Of a DNA stretch of 64,000 nucleotides, positions 20,611 through 38,450 are shown in pieces. The number at the start of each line of letters is the position of its first letter. The first letter of the stretch is position 1. The notes beneath the pieces were generated by a model that made no database searches, was not told the DNA's origin, and was given only the letters and a program-made list of their open reading frames with translations. Source of the DNA: Phycisphaerales bacterium (GTDB taxonomy: Bacteria; Planctomycetota; Phycisphaerae; Phycisphaerales; UBA1924); assembly GCA_023382935.1 (NCBI GenBank), contig JAHDXL010000001.1, positions 221,003 to 285,002 of the forward strand. Direction: 5' to 3'. The position numbers were made by a program, and so were the translations under genes.

Positions 20611-22881
20611 ATGCATCGGAACATCACGACCGGGGGCTTGGTGGTCATTCTGGGCTTGTGCGGGAGTCTGGCACGGGGCGACGAGGACGGGCGCAAACTG
20701 CTTGACCTGGAGCCAATGGTGCCGGGGCCCATCTGGCGACTGGGCGACGGCGCGCCGCGCGGGTTCAGCGCTTCCGGTGTGACGCTGATGAGTTGGCTTC
20801 CGCTGAACAACTTTTCGGGCGGGCACGGCTCGGGCAACGACTGCTGGGGCTACGTGTCGCCGTCAGGGCGCGAGTACGCGATTATCGGGCTGGAGCGCGG
20901 GTTCGGATTTGTGGAGATCACCGACCCGAGCAATCCGGTGATCGTCGCGAGCATCCCGGGGCCGACGAGTCTTTGGCACGACGTCAAGGTGATCGGGCAC
21001 TACGCCTATGGCGTGAGCGAGGGCGGTTCGGGCATCCAGGTGATGGACCTGTCCGACATCGACAACGGTGTGGTGACGCTGGTGCGCAACTGGCAGTCGG
21101 GCGGGCACTCCTCGACGCACAACATCGTCTCGAACCCCGACGCGGGAACGCTCTACCTGGCGGGAGCCAACGTCGGCAACGGCGGTCTGGTCAGCCTGAA
21201 CATGAGCGACCCGACGCGCCCGACCGTCTCCACCGGCTGGACCGACATGTATGTGCATGACGCGTGTGTGGTGTCCTATACCGAAGGGCCTTACGCCGGA
21301 CGCGAGATCGCGTTCTGCGCCAGCGGGTTCAACGGCGGATGGAACTCAACGGGCCTGCGTATCGTCGACGTCACCGACAAGAACAACATTTTCACCATTT
21401 CGACTTACTACTACACGACGCCCGCGTACAGCCACCAAGTCTGGCTGACGCCCGACAAGCGCTTCGCGTACCTCGATGACGAACTGGACGAGCAGAATGG
21501 GCTGGTGCCCACCACGACGACGCGGATCATCGACGTGTCCAATCTCTCGGCCCCCGTGCAGGTAGGCACATTCACGAGCAACTCCACTTCGATCGACCAC
21601 AATCTGTACGTGCGCGACCAGTACATCTTCGAGGCCAACTACACCTCGGGGTTGCGGGTGTTCGATGCGACGGACCCGGTGAACCCAGTGCAGATCGCCT
21701 TTTTCGACACGTATCCGGCCGGCGACAGCGCCAATTTCAACGGCGCGTGGAGTTGCTACCCTTACTTCCCCTCGGGCACGGTCATCGTCAGCGACATGAA
21801 CCGCGGACTGTTCGTGCTTCGCGTCGACGCCATCGACGGAGAGCGGCTGGACATCCAACTGGTGGGCGATCGGCCCTCGATGCTCAATCCCTTCGGCGGC
21901 ACCACGCTTGAAGTCACCATCAGCGAGGAGGGGCAGACGCTCAACCCCAGCACGGTATCGATGGTGGTGATTGACGGCAACGGGGTCGAGCACACGGCGC
22001 CGGGTGTGCCGACCGGGGCGGGAACCTACCGCTTCACTTCACCCGCGCTGGAGTGTGCCGACCAGGTCGAGTACTTCTTCAGCGCCCAAGCGACATCGGG
22101 CGAATACTTCTTTGCGCCGCTGACCGCGCCGACGCGCGGGTGGAGCGCCATCGCCGCCAGCGGGAGCAGCACCCCCTTTGCCGACGACTTCGAAGCCAGC
22201 CTCGGCTGGACCACCGCGAGCACGGCCAGCGCCGGGCAGTGGGCGCGAGGCGTGCCGGTCGGCGGTGGCACCCGCGGCGACCCGGCGACCGACTATGACG
22301 GCTCGGGCTCGTGCTACCTGACCGGCAACGCGGCCGGAGATTCCGACGTGGACAATGGCACGGTGACGCTGACATCTCCGGCCATGGACGCCAGCGGCGG
22401 GCGCGCGTTCCTGAACTACGCCCGCTGGTACTCCAACACCGCGGGGGCCGCGCCGCAGGCGGACACCTTCGTCGTCGAGGTTTCCAACAATAACGGCGGA
22501 AACTGGACCACGCTCGAGGTGGTCGGCCCCTCCGGGCCGGAGGTGTTCGGAGGGTGGGTGTACAAGTCGTTTGATCTCTCGACGGTGTTTGCGTCACCGA
22601 GCAGCCTGTTCAAGGTGAGGTTTGTCGCCTCCGACCTGGGCTCGGGCTCGGTGGTCGAAGCGGCGGTCGACGCGGTGTCCATCACGCGGTACGAGTGCGA
22701 GGCGCCGCCCGCCTGTCCGCCCGACCGCAACGCGGACGGCGTGCTCGACTTCTTTGACGTGCAGGACTTCCTGGCCGATTTTGCCGCACACGATCCGTCT
22801 GCCGACCTGACCGGCGACGGGATGCACAACTTCTTCGACGTGCAGATGTACCTGGCGACGTTCGCGGCCGGATGCCCGTGA
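20611..22881 (+). CDS. choice-of-anchor B family protein with LVIVD repeats and dockerin tail
   Basis: This is a 756-residue secreted protein. A signal peptide (MHRNITTGGLVVILGLCGSLARG) is followed by LVIVD-type beta-propeller repeats across about residues 60-410, seen as recurring 'DVSNLSAPVQVGTF' and 'VFDATDPVNPVQIAFF' phrases. An Ig-like segment (about 415-500) and a jelly-roll-like domain (about 520-690, starting DDFEASLGWTT) follow. It ends with two dockerin-type repeats (LDFFDVQDFL and HNFFDVQMYL, final GCP). The start at 20611 has GGAGA 5 nt upstream; the open frame extends to 20347 without support. Its ligand or partner is unknown. The same tail class occurs on the cytochrome at 404-2248, which suggests a shared surface-anchoring or sorting route. 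Confidence 0.85.
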   Translation: MHRNITTGGLVVILGLCGSLARGDEDGRKLLDLEPMVPGPIWRLGDGAPRGFSASGVTLMSWLPLNNFSGGHGSGNDCWGYVSPSGREYAIIGLERGFGFVEITDPSNPVIVASIPGPTSLWHDVKVIGHYAYGVSEGGSGIQVMDLSDIDNGVVTLVRNWQSGGHSSTHNIVSNPDAGTLYLAGANVGNGGLVSLNMSDPTRPTVSTGWTDMYVHDACVVSYTEGPYAGREIAFCASGFNGGWNSTGLRIVDVTDKNNIFTISTYYYTTPAYSHQVWLTPDKRFAYLDDELDEQNGLVPTTTTRIIDVSNLSAPVQVGTFTSNSTSIDHNLYVRDQYIFEANYTSGLRVFDATDPVNPVQIAFFDTYPAGDSANFNGAWSCYPYFPSGTVIVSDMNRGLFVLRVDAIDGERLDIQLVGDRPSMLNPFGGTTLEVTISEEGQTLNPSTVSMVVIDGNGVEHTAPGVPTGAGTYRFTSPALECADQVEYFFSAQATSGEYFFAPLTAPTRGWSAIAASGSSTPFADDFEASLGWTTASTASAGQWARGVPVGGGTRGDPATDYDGSGSCYLTGNAAGDSDVDNGTVTLTSPAMDASGGRAFLNYARWYSNTAGAAPQADTFVVEVSNNNGGNWTTLEVVGPSGPEVFGGWVYKSFDLSTVFASPSSLFKVRFVASDLGSGSVVEAAVDAVSITRYECEAPPACPPDRNADGVLDFFDVQDFLADFAAHDPSADLTGDGMHNFFDVQMYLATFAAGCP

Positions 22882-22912
22882 TCAGGCGGGCAGTGTGACC
22901 GAACCCAGACCA

Positions 22913-22934
22913 ACCGCCCCAGTCGGGGCGGTTT
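22913..22934 (+). terminator. Rho-independent terminator of the choice-of-anchor B gene
   Basis: ACCGCCCC (22913-22920) pairs with GGGGCGGT (22925-22932) around loop AGTC, followed by a short T run. It lies 31 bp after the stop codon. Confidence 0.75.
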
Positions 22935-22978
22935 CCCTGCGCGCTGCCTGCCATTCTGACCGGGCTTTCGAGGTCTTT

Positions 22979-22993
22979 TTGCCACTCCGGCAA
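22979..22993 (+). promoter_or_regulatory. candidate enhancer-binding-protein site upstream of hsp20
   Basis: The perfect palindrome TTGCC-ACTCC-GGCAA is centred about 86 bp before the predicted sigma-54 start site. That is the usual range for bacterial enhancer-binding proteins. The call rests on position and symmetry only. Confidence 0.4.
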
Positions 22994-23044
22994 GGGCTGG
23001 AAGGAACGCGCCATTGCGTGGTGGCGAGACGGCAGCCCCGACGC

Positions 23045-23061
23045 TTGGCACGCCGGTTGCA
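23045..23061 (+). promoter_or_regulatory. sigma-54 (-24/-12) promoter of hsp20
   Basis: TTGGCACGCCGGTTGCA matches the sigma-54 consensus TGGCACG-N4-TTGCW. The invariant GG (23047-23048) and GC (23059-23060) are separated by exactly 10 bp. Transcription would start near 23072, 67 nt before the hsp20 ATG. Confidence 0.75.
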
Positions 23062-23138
23062 AAACTCCCGGCATGACGATTTCCCGAGTTTTCTGTGTTC
23101 CCTGCAGGCCTCTCAAGGCCCAAGGAAGGAGGACTGAC

Positions 23139-23573
23139 ATGCCCGGCAACATCATCCGTCGTGACCCGTTCGAGATGTTCTCGCCCGTGGAGGGGCTCAT
23201 CAACCGCCTCTTCCAGGAGCCGTTCGGTGCAAGCCTGCCGATGATCGAGGAAGGCGCCCTGGCGCTCGACATCTCGGAGACCGATGACGCGCTGATCATT
23301 CGTGCTTCGCTGCCCGGCTTCCGCAAGGAGGATGTGAACATCGAAGTGCATGAGGGCGTGCTGACGATCAGCGCCACCCGCGAGCAGGAGACCGAGGAAC
23401 GGAACGAGAAGTTCTACCGGCGTGAGCGCCGCACCGGCTCGGTCAGCCGGCGCGTCGCGCTGCCGAGCATGGTCACCGACGATCAGGCCGACGCGGAGTT
23501 GAAGGACGGCGTGCTGACGCTGCGGCTGCCCAAGTCGAAGAAGGACTCGCCGAAGAAGATCAGCGTGAAGTAG
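23139..23573 (+). CDS. Hsp20/alpha-crystallin family small heat-shock protein
   Basis: This 144-residue ATP-independent holdase chaperone keeps unfolding proteins soluble. The alpha-crystallin domain spans about residues 40-135, with LDISETDDALIIRASLPGF at its start, EVHEGVLTISATRE in the middle and the typical A-x-x-x-n-GVLTL motif (AELKDGVLTLRLPK). The lysine-rich tail KKISVK ends the protein. AAGGAGG lies 6 nt before the ATG. It is a single-gene unit with its own sigma-54-type promoter and terminator, rather than an obvious CIRCE element. Confidence 0.95.
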   Translation: MPGNIIRRDPFEMFSPVEGLINRLFQEPFGASLPMIEEGALALDISETDDALIIRASLPGFRKEDVNIEVHEGVLTISATREQETEERNEKFYRRERRTGSVSRRVALPSMVTDDQADAELKDGVLTLRLPKSKKDSPKKISVK

Positions 23574-23605
23574 TACGCCCGGGGCGTTTGCTCAGTCGGT
23601 GTGAA

Positions 23606-23648
23606 CCGGAGAGGTGCCCCGCGAAGGGCACTTCTCCGGCGTTTTCTT
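23606..23648 (+). terminator. Rho-independent terminator of hsp20
   Basis: A 14-bp stem with one G-U pair (23606-23619 with 23626-23639) and a 6-nt loop is followed by CGTTTTCTT. It lies 32 bp after the hsp20 stop and just before the end of the convergent xylulokinase gene. Confidence 0.85.
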
Positions 23649-23669
23649 CGCTGGCCCTGCCCGATGAGT

Positions 23670-25199
23670 TCATGCCGGTGCGTGCATCGTCGCCCGCAGT
23701 GCCGGATACAGCCCGTCGTAACGGGCACGGGCCTGCTGCATGGTTCGGCGAGCCGGGCCGGGAGGCGTCCTCTCCGCGGTGTGCACGCACTTCGCGCAGG
23801 CCTGCTCGATGGAATCAAACTCCCGGACGGCGCTTCCCGCCAGCAGGGCAGCGCCGAAAGCCGGGCCTTCGTCGTTGTCCACCGTGAAGACCTCGTGTCC
23901 GATGCAGTCGGCCAGGATTTGCCGCCACAGCGGCGACCGCGCGCCACCGCCTCCGATGCGCACCTGCTGTGTCTCGATGCCCAGTGAAGTCACGAGATCG
24001 AACACCTGCGCCATGCCCAGGCAGACACCCTCGATGACCGAGCGGACGAGATGGGCACGGCTGTGGCTGCGTGTGAGCCCGATCCAGCCCCCGCGTGCCT
24101 GCGGGTCGGCGTAAGGGCAGCGCTCGCCGGTGAGATGTGGCATGAACAGCAGTCCATCGCAGCCCGGCGCCACGCGAGCGGCCTCGTTCATCAGGTCGTC
24201 GTAGGTGGCGCCGGGCGCGAGCACGGAGCGGGCCCACTCGAGCGAGCCCGCGGCCGAGAGCATGCATCCGGTGATGGTCCACGCGCCGCGTCTGGCGTCG
24301 TTGCCGGTGGCGCTGCACATGGTGTGCACGCGCCCAGGCGTGGGGCCTCCGAGATCCTTGAGCGGGTGTGAACTGTGTGCATAGACGACGCCGCTGGTGC
24401 CGAGCGTCAGGAGCAGCGTGCCGGGCTCGACGACGCCTGCGCCAACGCCGCCGCACTGGTTGTCGCCGGAGCCGGCGATGACCGGAGTACCTTCGGGGAT
24501 GCCGGTCTGCACGCTGGCCCAGGGGAGTACCTGCCCGACAACCGCGCCCGATTCAACAACCGGTGGCAGGATGGATGGATCGAGCCCGAAGGCTCGCACG
24601 AGATGGGTGCTCCATATGCGTTGATCGACATCAAGGAGCAGCGTGCCGGCCGCATCGCCCACGTCGCTACCGAGCATGCCAGTCAGGCAGAGGCGAATGA
24701 AGTCCTTGGGCATGCAGAAGGCGGCCAGGCGTGCAAAGTGCGGTGGTTCGTGCGCGCGCAGCCAGAGGATCTTGGGGAGCGTGAAACCGGTGAGCGGCGC
24801 GTTGCCAGCGATGTGAACGAGGTTCTCCACGCTTCCGACGGCCTGGGTGATCTGTTGGCACTCGGTCGCGGTGCGCTGATCGTTCCACATCAGGGCCGGG
24901 CGGATGGCGGTGACCTCGCGCCGACCCGCGTCTTCCAAGGCCGCGGCGTCGAGGAACACGCTCCCGTGCATCTGTCCCGACAACCCGACGCACTGGATCG
25001 AACGAGCGTCGATGTGAGCACAAACCTGGCGCATGGCCTGGCAGGCGGCACGCCACCAGACAGAAGGATCCTGCTCCGACCAACCCGGTTGCGGACGATC
25101 AAAGTCGTAGGTGGACGAGGCCTGGGCGACGACGCGACCGAAGCGATCGACGGCAACGACCTTAGTCGAACTGGTTCCGATGTCCGCTCCAATGAACAC
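23670..25199 (-). CDS. xylB: xylulokinase (FGGY carbohydrate kinase)
   Basis: This 509-residue cytoplasmic kinase is predicted to phosphorylate D-xylulose with ATP, feeding the pentose phosphate pathway. The N-terminal ATPase-fold motif GADIGTSSTKVVAVD, the xylulokinase-type LSGQMHGSVFLD, and the C-terminal nucleotide-binding block GGGARSPLWRQILAD support the call. The length is typical. The start is GTG with GGAG 8 nt upstream. It lies 15 nt after the LhgO-like gene, so the two are likely cotranscribed. A closely related FGGY substrate such as ribulose cannot be excluded. Confidence 0.88.
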   Translation of the reverse strand: MFIGADIGTSSTKVVAVDRFGRVVAQASSTYDFDRPQPGWSEQDPSVWWRAACQAMRQVCAHIDARSIQCVGLSGQMHGSVFLDAAALEDAGRREVTAIRPALMWNDQRTATECQQITQAVGSVENLVHIAGNAPLTGFTLPKILWLRAHEPPHFARLAAFCMPKDFIRLCLTGMLGSDVGDAAGTLLLDVDQRIWSTHLVRAFGLDPSILPPVVESGAVVGQVLPWASVQTGIPEGTPVIAGSGDNQCGGVGAGVVEPGTLLLTLGTSGVVYAHSSHPLKDLGGPTPGRVHTMCSATGNDARRGAWTITGCMLSAAGSLEWARSVLAPGATYDDLMNEAARVAPGCDGLLFMPHLTGERCPYADPQARGGWIGLTRSHSRAHLVRSVIEGVCLGMAQVFDLVTSLGIETQQVRIGGGGARSPLWRQILADCIGHEVFTVDNDEGPAFGAALLAGSAVREFDSIEQACAKCVHTAERTPPGPARRTMQQARARYDGLYPALRATMHAPA

Positions 25200-38434: not shown

Positions 38435-38450
38435 CGCAATTCCCGTGCCA
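38435..38450 (-). promoter_or_regulatory. sigma-54 (-24/-12) promoter of flagellin 2
   Basis: On the minus strand TGGCACGGGAATTGCG gives a perfect TGGCACG and TTGC, with GG and GC exactly 10 bp apart. Transcription would start near 38424, giving a leader of about 117 nt. Flagellins are sigma-54 genes in several bacteria. Confidence 0.75.

Follow-up and report, generated by a model that had tools for sequence, protein, structure and literature searches.

The hsp20 gene in the window (the whole stretch of 64,000 nucleotides analysed here, from the Phycisphaerales genome that we call G000) very probably belongs to a sigma-54 chaperone regulon in which one enhancer-binding protein (EBP) acts at palindromic sites, and comparisons of sequence point to the C4 orphan response regulator encoded at G000:C4:327602-329041 as the likeliest such protein. 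In the mechanism that we propose, sigma-54 RNA polymerase would sit in a closed complex on the promoter at 23046-23061, one EBP would bind the TGCCA-N3-TGGCA palindrome or palindromes at 22979 and 22948, and the bound EBP would loop the DNA and melt the promoter with ATP. The EBP would be the C4-type orphan response regulator (receiver, Sigma54_activat AAA+ and HTH_8), to which we attribute palindrome binding, and the presumed signal would be proteotoxic stress such as heat.

Textbook heat-shock control relies on RpoH or HrcA/CIRCE. For planctomycetes in which neither RpoH nor HrcA is recognised, the element described here offers a possible way of switching on DnaK, GroEL and ClpB, made up of a single type of promoter, a single enhancer sequence, a rule for the spacing between them and a single candidate activator. 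It suggests that many planctomycetes and some Bacteroidales switch on their stress proteins by an activator in place of the customary heat-shock sigma factor or repressor. We would predict that it is the activator through which the stress signal acts, and that a similar logic operates in gut Bacteroidales.

The hsp20 locus

The features of the locus are listed in Table 1. The initial annotation had described a near-perfect sigma-54 promoter before hsp20, and this description holds, as all 12 consensus bases are present and the sequence is the sole exact match to TGGCACG-N4-TTGCA in the window and one of only three in the 3.7 Mb genome. Sites with up to two mismatches show no excess over chance, either in the window (9 versus a shuffle mean of 7.3) or in the genome (304 versus 323 for the reversed pattern), so only near-perfect sigma-54 sites can be regarded as meaningful.

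Table 1. Features of the hsp20 locus, with positions counted from the first base of the window
Feature	Position	Strand	Remarks
Second, weaker enhancer site CTGCCATTCTGACCG	22948-22962	+	End 83 bp 5' of promoter
Enhancer (UAS) palindrome TTGCCACTCCGGCAA	22979-22993	+	Centre 22986; end 52 bp 5' of promoter
Sigma-54 (-24/-12) promoter TGGCACGCCGGTTGCA	23046-23061	+	12/12 consensus; GG-GC gap of 10 bases
Predicted transcription start (+1)	23072	+	Promoter geometry, C at 23060 taken as -12
hsp20 ribosome-binding site AAGGAGG	23126-23132	+	Sequence
hsp20 / alpha-crystallin small heat-shock protein, 144 aa	23139-23573	+	PF00011, E 2.5e-21
Intrinsic-terminator-like hairpin, 14 pairs, 3' of hsp20	23606-23639	+	

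The second element noted in the initial annotation, a TTGCC-N5-GGCAA palindrome at -86, is positioned as claimed, with the centre of TTGCCACTCCGGCAA at -86 relative to the predicted +1, but it carries no significance on its own. The window holds 3 such sites at up to one mismatch, which is not beyond chance (shuffle mean 2.2), and YTGCC-N5-GGCAR occurs 24 times in the genome versus 55 times for the reversed control. The palindrome was therefore rejected as a stand-alone signal, and its significance derives from the comparison with relatives. The weaker site CTGCCATTCTGACCG lies 31 bp 5' of TTGCCACTCCGGCAA, or about three helical turns, and a two-site enhancer layout, with copies at 51 and 82 bp, is also found in a genome of the same genus (G002, L045).

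An in-frame ATG at 23073, one base past the predicted +1, could extend hsp20 by 22 codons; we set the start at 23139 because of the AAGGAGG ribosome-binding site. Given the terminator-like hairpin that follows it, hsp20 is probably transcribed alone. No E. coli-type sigma-70 promoter was found at 22850-23700.

The same element at other chaperone genes of the genome

One of the three exact sigma-54 matches in the genome precedes hsp20 and another precedes dnaK (reading frames named by eye), while the third lies in or just 5' of a recR-like reading frame near rpoN (also by eye). The groEL promoter (gene name by eye) is a sigma-54 site with one mismatch. A palindrome is present upstream of all three chaperone promoters, i.e., those of hsp20, dnaK (CTGCCAGATCGGCAG) and groEL (CTGCCAAGGTGGCAG), and at clpB (by eye) the palindrome CTGCCAATTCGGCAG lies 51 bp ahead of a weaker promoter, CGGTCCGCCGATTGCA. 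These four are among the genome's 24 such palindromes. Looking for the palindrome near other chaperone genes had been suggested in the initial annotation, and dnaK, groEL and clpB are where it was found. The palindrome-promoter distances at dnaK and groEL are 115 and 107 bp, outside the 52-82 bp range of the order-wide scan described below.

A separate near-perfect sigma-54 promoter, TGGCACGGGAATTGCG, lies on the reverse strand of the window at 38435-38450, with its first base 143 bp 5' of a flagellin start (by eye; L007); no good copy of the chaperone palindrome was found at this flagellin-like promoter.

Recurrence and helical phasing across the order

We searched for hsp20 in 61 genomes, found it in 45, and read 30 loci, that of G000 included, calling a promoter where at least 10 of the 12 consensus bases were matched within 350 bp of the chosen start. 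By this measure a sigma-54 promoter precedes 19 of the 30 hsp20 genes (own included) versus 0.65 expected, the maximum in 200 shuffle runs being 3. That an EBP drives chaperone expression is well supported at the level of sequence. The other 11 genes, including those of five f4/g38 genomes (L056, L059, L064, L067, L072), have no site of 10/12 or better.

The combined pattern of palindrome and promoter (TGCC-N5-GGCA, then 52-82 bp, then TGGCAY-N5-TTG) was scanned for in 301 genomes of the order and was found in 149, versus 7 for the reversed-pattern control. Among the matches listed, 110 loci were read (30 from the scan output and 80 picked), and these hold 111 distinct sites, of which tblastn places 99 directly 5' of a gene for a chaperone or a related protein: dnaK (55), hsp20 (19), groEL (16), clpC (3), dnaJ (3), clpB (2) and trx (1). 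The other 12 include one site that precedes tandem Hsp20-like genes, the second matching PF00011 (L235), two sites that share one promoter before an Hsp20 homologue (L247), and one where the sequence ends 154 bp downstream (L076). The sigma-54 promoter and the enhancer-like palindrome at hsp20, as the initial annotation had them, are there, and its reading is supported; what had to be widened is the scope, in that this appears to be a widespread chaperone system and not a peculiarity of hsp20.

The palindrome-promoter distances of the 99 sites fall at 52-53, 59-63, 69-75 and 79-82 bp, with none between. At a 10-bp period the Rayleigh Z is 55, versus a largest value of 12.2 in 2000 uniform simulations, and when the sites are collapsed to 39 distinct gene-distance pairs, Z is 18.8, a value reached by none of 20000 simulations. 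The overall range of 52-82 bp is imposed by the scan itself. Steps of about 10 bp are the signature expected of a looping activator bound on one face of the helix.

Two alternatives can be weighed against these results. The palindrome could be the operator of a repressor or of a classical activator, with the sigma-54 promoter incidental, and repressor operators are typically palindromes of about this size; we consider this very unlikely, since the palindrome lies well 5' of the -24 element and, within the range set by the scan, moves in steps of about 10 bp across the order, and since HrcA was not found in any of 23 genomes. The second alternative, that the match at hsp20 arose by chance and the gene is under another promoter, e.g., one for an RpoS/RpoD-like sigma factor, could appeal to the existence of such sigma factors, to the chance-level frequency of two-mismatch promoters and to the non-significance of the palindrome alone. 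It is hardly credible in view of the recurrence of the element at 19 of 30 hsp20 genes, at the genome's own dnaK and groEL, and before chaperones at 99 of 111 sites. The preferred reading remains a sigma-54 regulon with an activator at the palindrome. Against it count the 11 hsp20 genes without a site, the longer distances at dnaK and groEL of G000 and, from results given below, the lack of significant periodicity in Planctomycetota at large, the position of the candidate EBP gene away from chaperone genes, the two genomes of other groups in which no ERTLYRK-type EBP was found, and the RpoS/RpoD-like sigma factors.

Other heat-shock regulators

HrcA was found in 0 of 23 genomes, the control set being positive in 7 of 14, and the exact CIRCE consensus was present in 3 of 448 loci, all from Hydrogenophaga. 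RpoH above the curated cut-off was likewise found in 0 of the 23, with a model that was built for proteobacteria. Sub-threshold RpoH matches occur in all 23 genomes; for G000 and G166, models of RpoS and RpoD give the best of these a higher score (about 246 versus 153 and 145 bits), and we therefore regard them as RpoS/RpoD-like. It is possible that such sigma factors, kept in each genome tested, serve stress. At G000:C5:349284-350075 (L449) lies the gene for another RpoS/RpoD-like sigma factor, some 300-370 aa long and matching best with RpoS models, and matches of this size also occur in the other planctomycete genomes of the RpoH profile search.

Relation to known systems

In E. coli, the small heat-shock gene ibpB is reported to have a sigma-54 promoter, as hsp20 does here. 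There, it is one gene beside the sigma-32 regulon, whereas here a single enhancer type is common to several core chaperones, and the genomes tested yielded neither HrcA nor an RpoH above cut-off.

For Planctomycetota and Bacteroidota, sigma-54 promoters ahead of chaperone genes are already in the literature: PMC12316311 (2025) predicts them for groEL, groES, hsp20/IbpA, grpE, dnaJ and dnaK, and gives grpE and groES of B. thetaiotaomicron as sigma-54-dependent. That study is like ours in its sigma factor, its target genes and its two phyla, with Phycisphaerae mentioned as a smaller presence. Its main text does not contain the terms UAS, 'upstream activat' or bEBP, and the passages compared here do not name an enhancer common to the chaperones, its spacing or an EBP that would act there, whereas all three are proposed here.

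The hrcA-grpE operon of Chlamydia, a relative of the planctomycetes, has a sigma-54 promoter (PMC8762339) and resembles the present case in that a heat-shock operon is served by sigma-54 together with a two-component EBP. In Chlamydia, however, HrcA is present and rpoN falls on heat shock, whereas HrcA was not found here. The part of the Desulfovibrio study PMC4641369 that was compared includes no chaperone regulon. Our literature searches turned up no account of this common enhancer or of the protein acting on it; a study of Pirellula activators (Studholme and Dixon 2004) could have anticipated some of these points.

Occurrence beyond the order

A stricter pattern applied to the GTDB genome collection yielded at least 118 stretches, 9 of whose sites overlap the order's 111. 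Among the matches listed, a chaperone lies downstream by tblastn in 55 of 63 Planctomycetota stretches, in 10 of the 15 Bacteroidota stretches and in 3 of the 40 stretches of other origin. Inspection by eye adds, among the same matches listed, two Hsp20 and two HtpX genes (L280, L364) in Planctomycetota, ClpB in Bacteroidota (L294) and Lon in Latescibacterota (L349), the last being one of the 37 of 40 stretches listed from other phyla that have no chaperone downstream by tblastn. The remainder of the Planctomycetota matches listed consists of two stretches that end early and two that precede other genes. Among the matches listed, those followed by a chaperone include records named as Rhodopirellula, Gimesia, Paludibacteraceae, Alistipes and one Longimicrobiales.

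The 10 Bacteroidota chaperone sites are periodic, at 54-55, 64-66 and 75-77 bp (equalled in none of 3000 simulations). Planctomycetota at large, with 55 chaperone sites, show no significant periodicity at 10 bp (Z 4.8, equalled in 5% of simulations), for which mixed classes with different offsets may account, and the 37 sites from other phyla without a chaperone assignment are not periodic (22% of simulations).

Several Burkholderiales matches, which precede ccoG-like genes by eye, were set aside as probably reflecting another regulator or chance, and a match in Zixibacteria, with dnaK 652 bp away, was set aside as doubtful. In three Hydrogenophaga loci (L277, L312, L321), an exact CIRCE lies 62-63 bp 5' of the palindrome and a sigma-54-like site, ahead of a ccoG-like gene (by eye). 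In three loci from Paludibacteraceae and Bacteroidales (L255, L271, L346), the gene that follows the palindrome and promoter encodes a protein of 73 aa that looks identical in all three and may be a further member of the regulon.

The candidate activator

Absence of rpoN, which the initial annotation had named as evidence against its reading, is not what we found: the genome encodes a single RpoN (PF04552, E 5e-59) and has 12 matches to the sigma-54 activator domain, of which seven are strong (E 4e-62 or better); among the five weak matches, L039 appears by its position to be the clpB gene. When 20 genomes were scanned for the activator domain at E <= 1e-25, exactly one EBP was found in seven genomes, each about 2 Mb in size, six of which belong to a single genus and the seventh to a different one. 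Each of the seven has rpoN and carries the element before dnaK (6) or groEL (1), and in each the single EBP is an ortholog of the G000 protein at C4 (L037), with 58-62% identity. Sigma-54 promoters depend on an activator to fire, and since these seven genomes show just that EBP, the C4 ortholog is the candidate activator. Orthologs at E <= 1e-120 are present in 285 of the 301 genomes of the order. The C4 protein has a receiver (PF00072), a Sigma54_activat AAA+ domain (PF00158) and a Fis HTH (PF02954, HTH_8) over cut-off, and its GAFTGA-type loop reads GAYTGA.

Another of the seven EBPs, or several of them, might instead act at the palindrome while the C4 EBP runs some other regulon. G000 does have seven strong EBPs, and orthologs of two of them (L034 and L032) also occur in several relatives, but the seven genomes in which the C4 ortholog alone is found (E <= 1e-25) still carry the element before dnaK or groEL, which makes this alternative rather unlikely. 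Among these EBPs, L035, in which a receiver domain was not found, had been favoured first, on the basis of an FhlA site of the form TGTCG-N3-TGACA; it was dropped as the seven single-EBP genomes point to L037, i.e., the C4 EBP.

The gene for the C4 EBP does not lie beside chaperones (the EBPs of G000 gave no tblastn match at 1e-8 in 100 loci of relatives, 40 of them of about 10 kb), no TGYC-N5-GRCA palindrome was found within its 3.5 kb locus, and neither in G000 nor in G166 was a histidine kinase seen next to it. The regulon may be real and yet answer to something other than heat or misfolded protein, such as starvation, redox state or the cell cycle, with chaperones as one output among others; a receiver domain with no adjacent kinase seen would fit this, as would the lack of a receiver in the possible Bacteroidales counterparts described below, by which the input would not be conserved. 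We regard such a signal as a lesser but real possibility, given that 99 of the 111 sites (among the matches listed) precede chaperone, Clp or trx genes, that the GTDB matches add HtpX, ClpB and Lon by eye, and that heat induces ClpB, GroEL, DnaJ, GrpE, Hsp20 and DnaK in R. baltica (PMC2754498).

The recognition helix of the activator was compared among genomes with and without the element. In three f4/g38 genomes known to carry the C4 ortholog, G039, G043 and G055 (L183-L185), the C4 orthologs read ERTLYRL and not ERTLYRK, and hsp20 in their group lacks the element; five of the six f4 genomes in the order scan have no element match and one (G059) has one. In 16 element-bearing genomes of other groups, activators were read in part: 11 have the ERTLYRK helix, two have the variants ERSMYRK and ERSVYRK, one was lost at a contig end, and in the remaining two, G314 and G321, no ERTLYRK-type EBP was found among the activators read. 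In five Bacteroidales genomes (L376-L379, L382), the receiver-bearing activator ends without an HTH, and in four of these five a second activator, without a receiver, has an ERTLYRK-type helix (L393, L395, L396, L429). As ERTLYRK differs little from the consensus of the HTH_8 family, finding it in other phyla lends support to a shared activator and does not decide the matter.

The phage-shock regulon of PspF, also a stress regulon, likewise pairs sigma-54 with a dedicated EBP. PspF consists of AAA+ and HTH without a receiver, as does the Bacteroidales candidate; unlike in the PspF regulon, the targets here are cytoplasmic chaperones and the planctomycete EBP has a receiver domain. Taken at its broadest, the proposal is that in much of Planctomycetota the role of master regulator of heat shock falls to an EBP in place of a sigma factor or repressor, and that a homologue of this activator, sharing its recognition helix, does so at the same CTGCCA-N3-TGGCAG enhancer in Bacteroidales and perhaps Gemmatimonadota, which would amount to a third, ancient mode of bacterial heat-shock control whose sensory domain was exchanged between phyla. 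To this broader proposal we give even chances.

In the locus G000:C4:325511-329041 (L189), the gene for the C4 EBP is followed on the same strand by one for an HDOD-GGDEF-receiver protein, a possible signalling partner of the EBP. At G000:C7:135688-137477 (L019, L020, L036), a further receiver-type activator gene lies near two oppositely oriented sigma-54-like sites, one of which precedes a NapC/NirT-like cytochrome gene (by eye).
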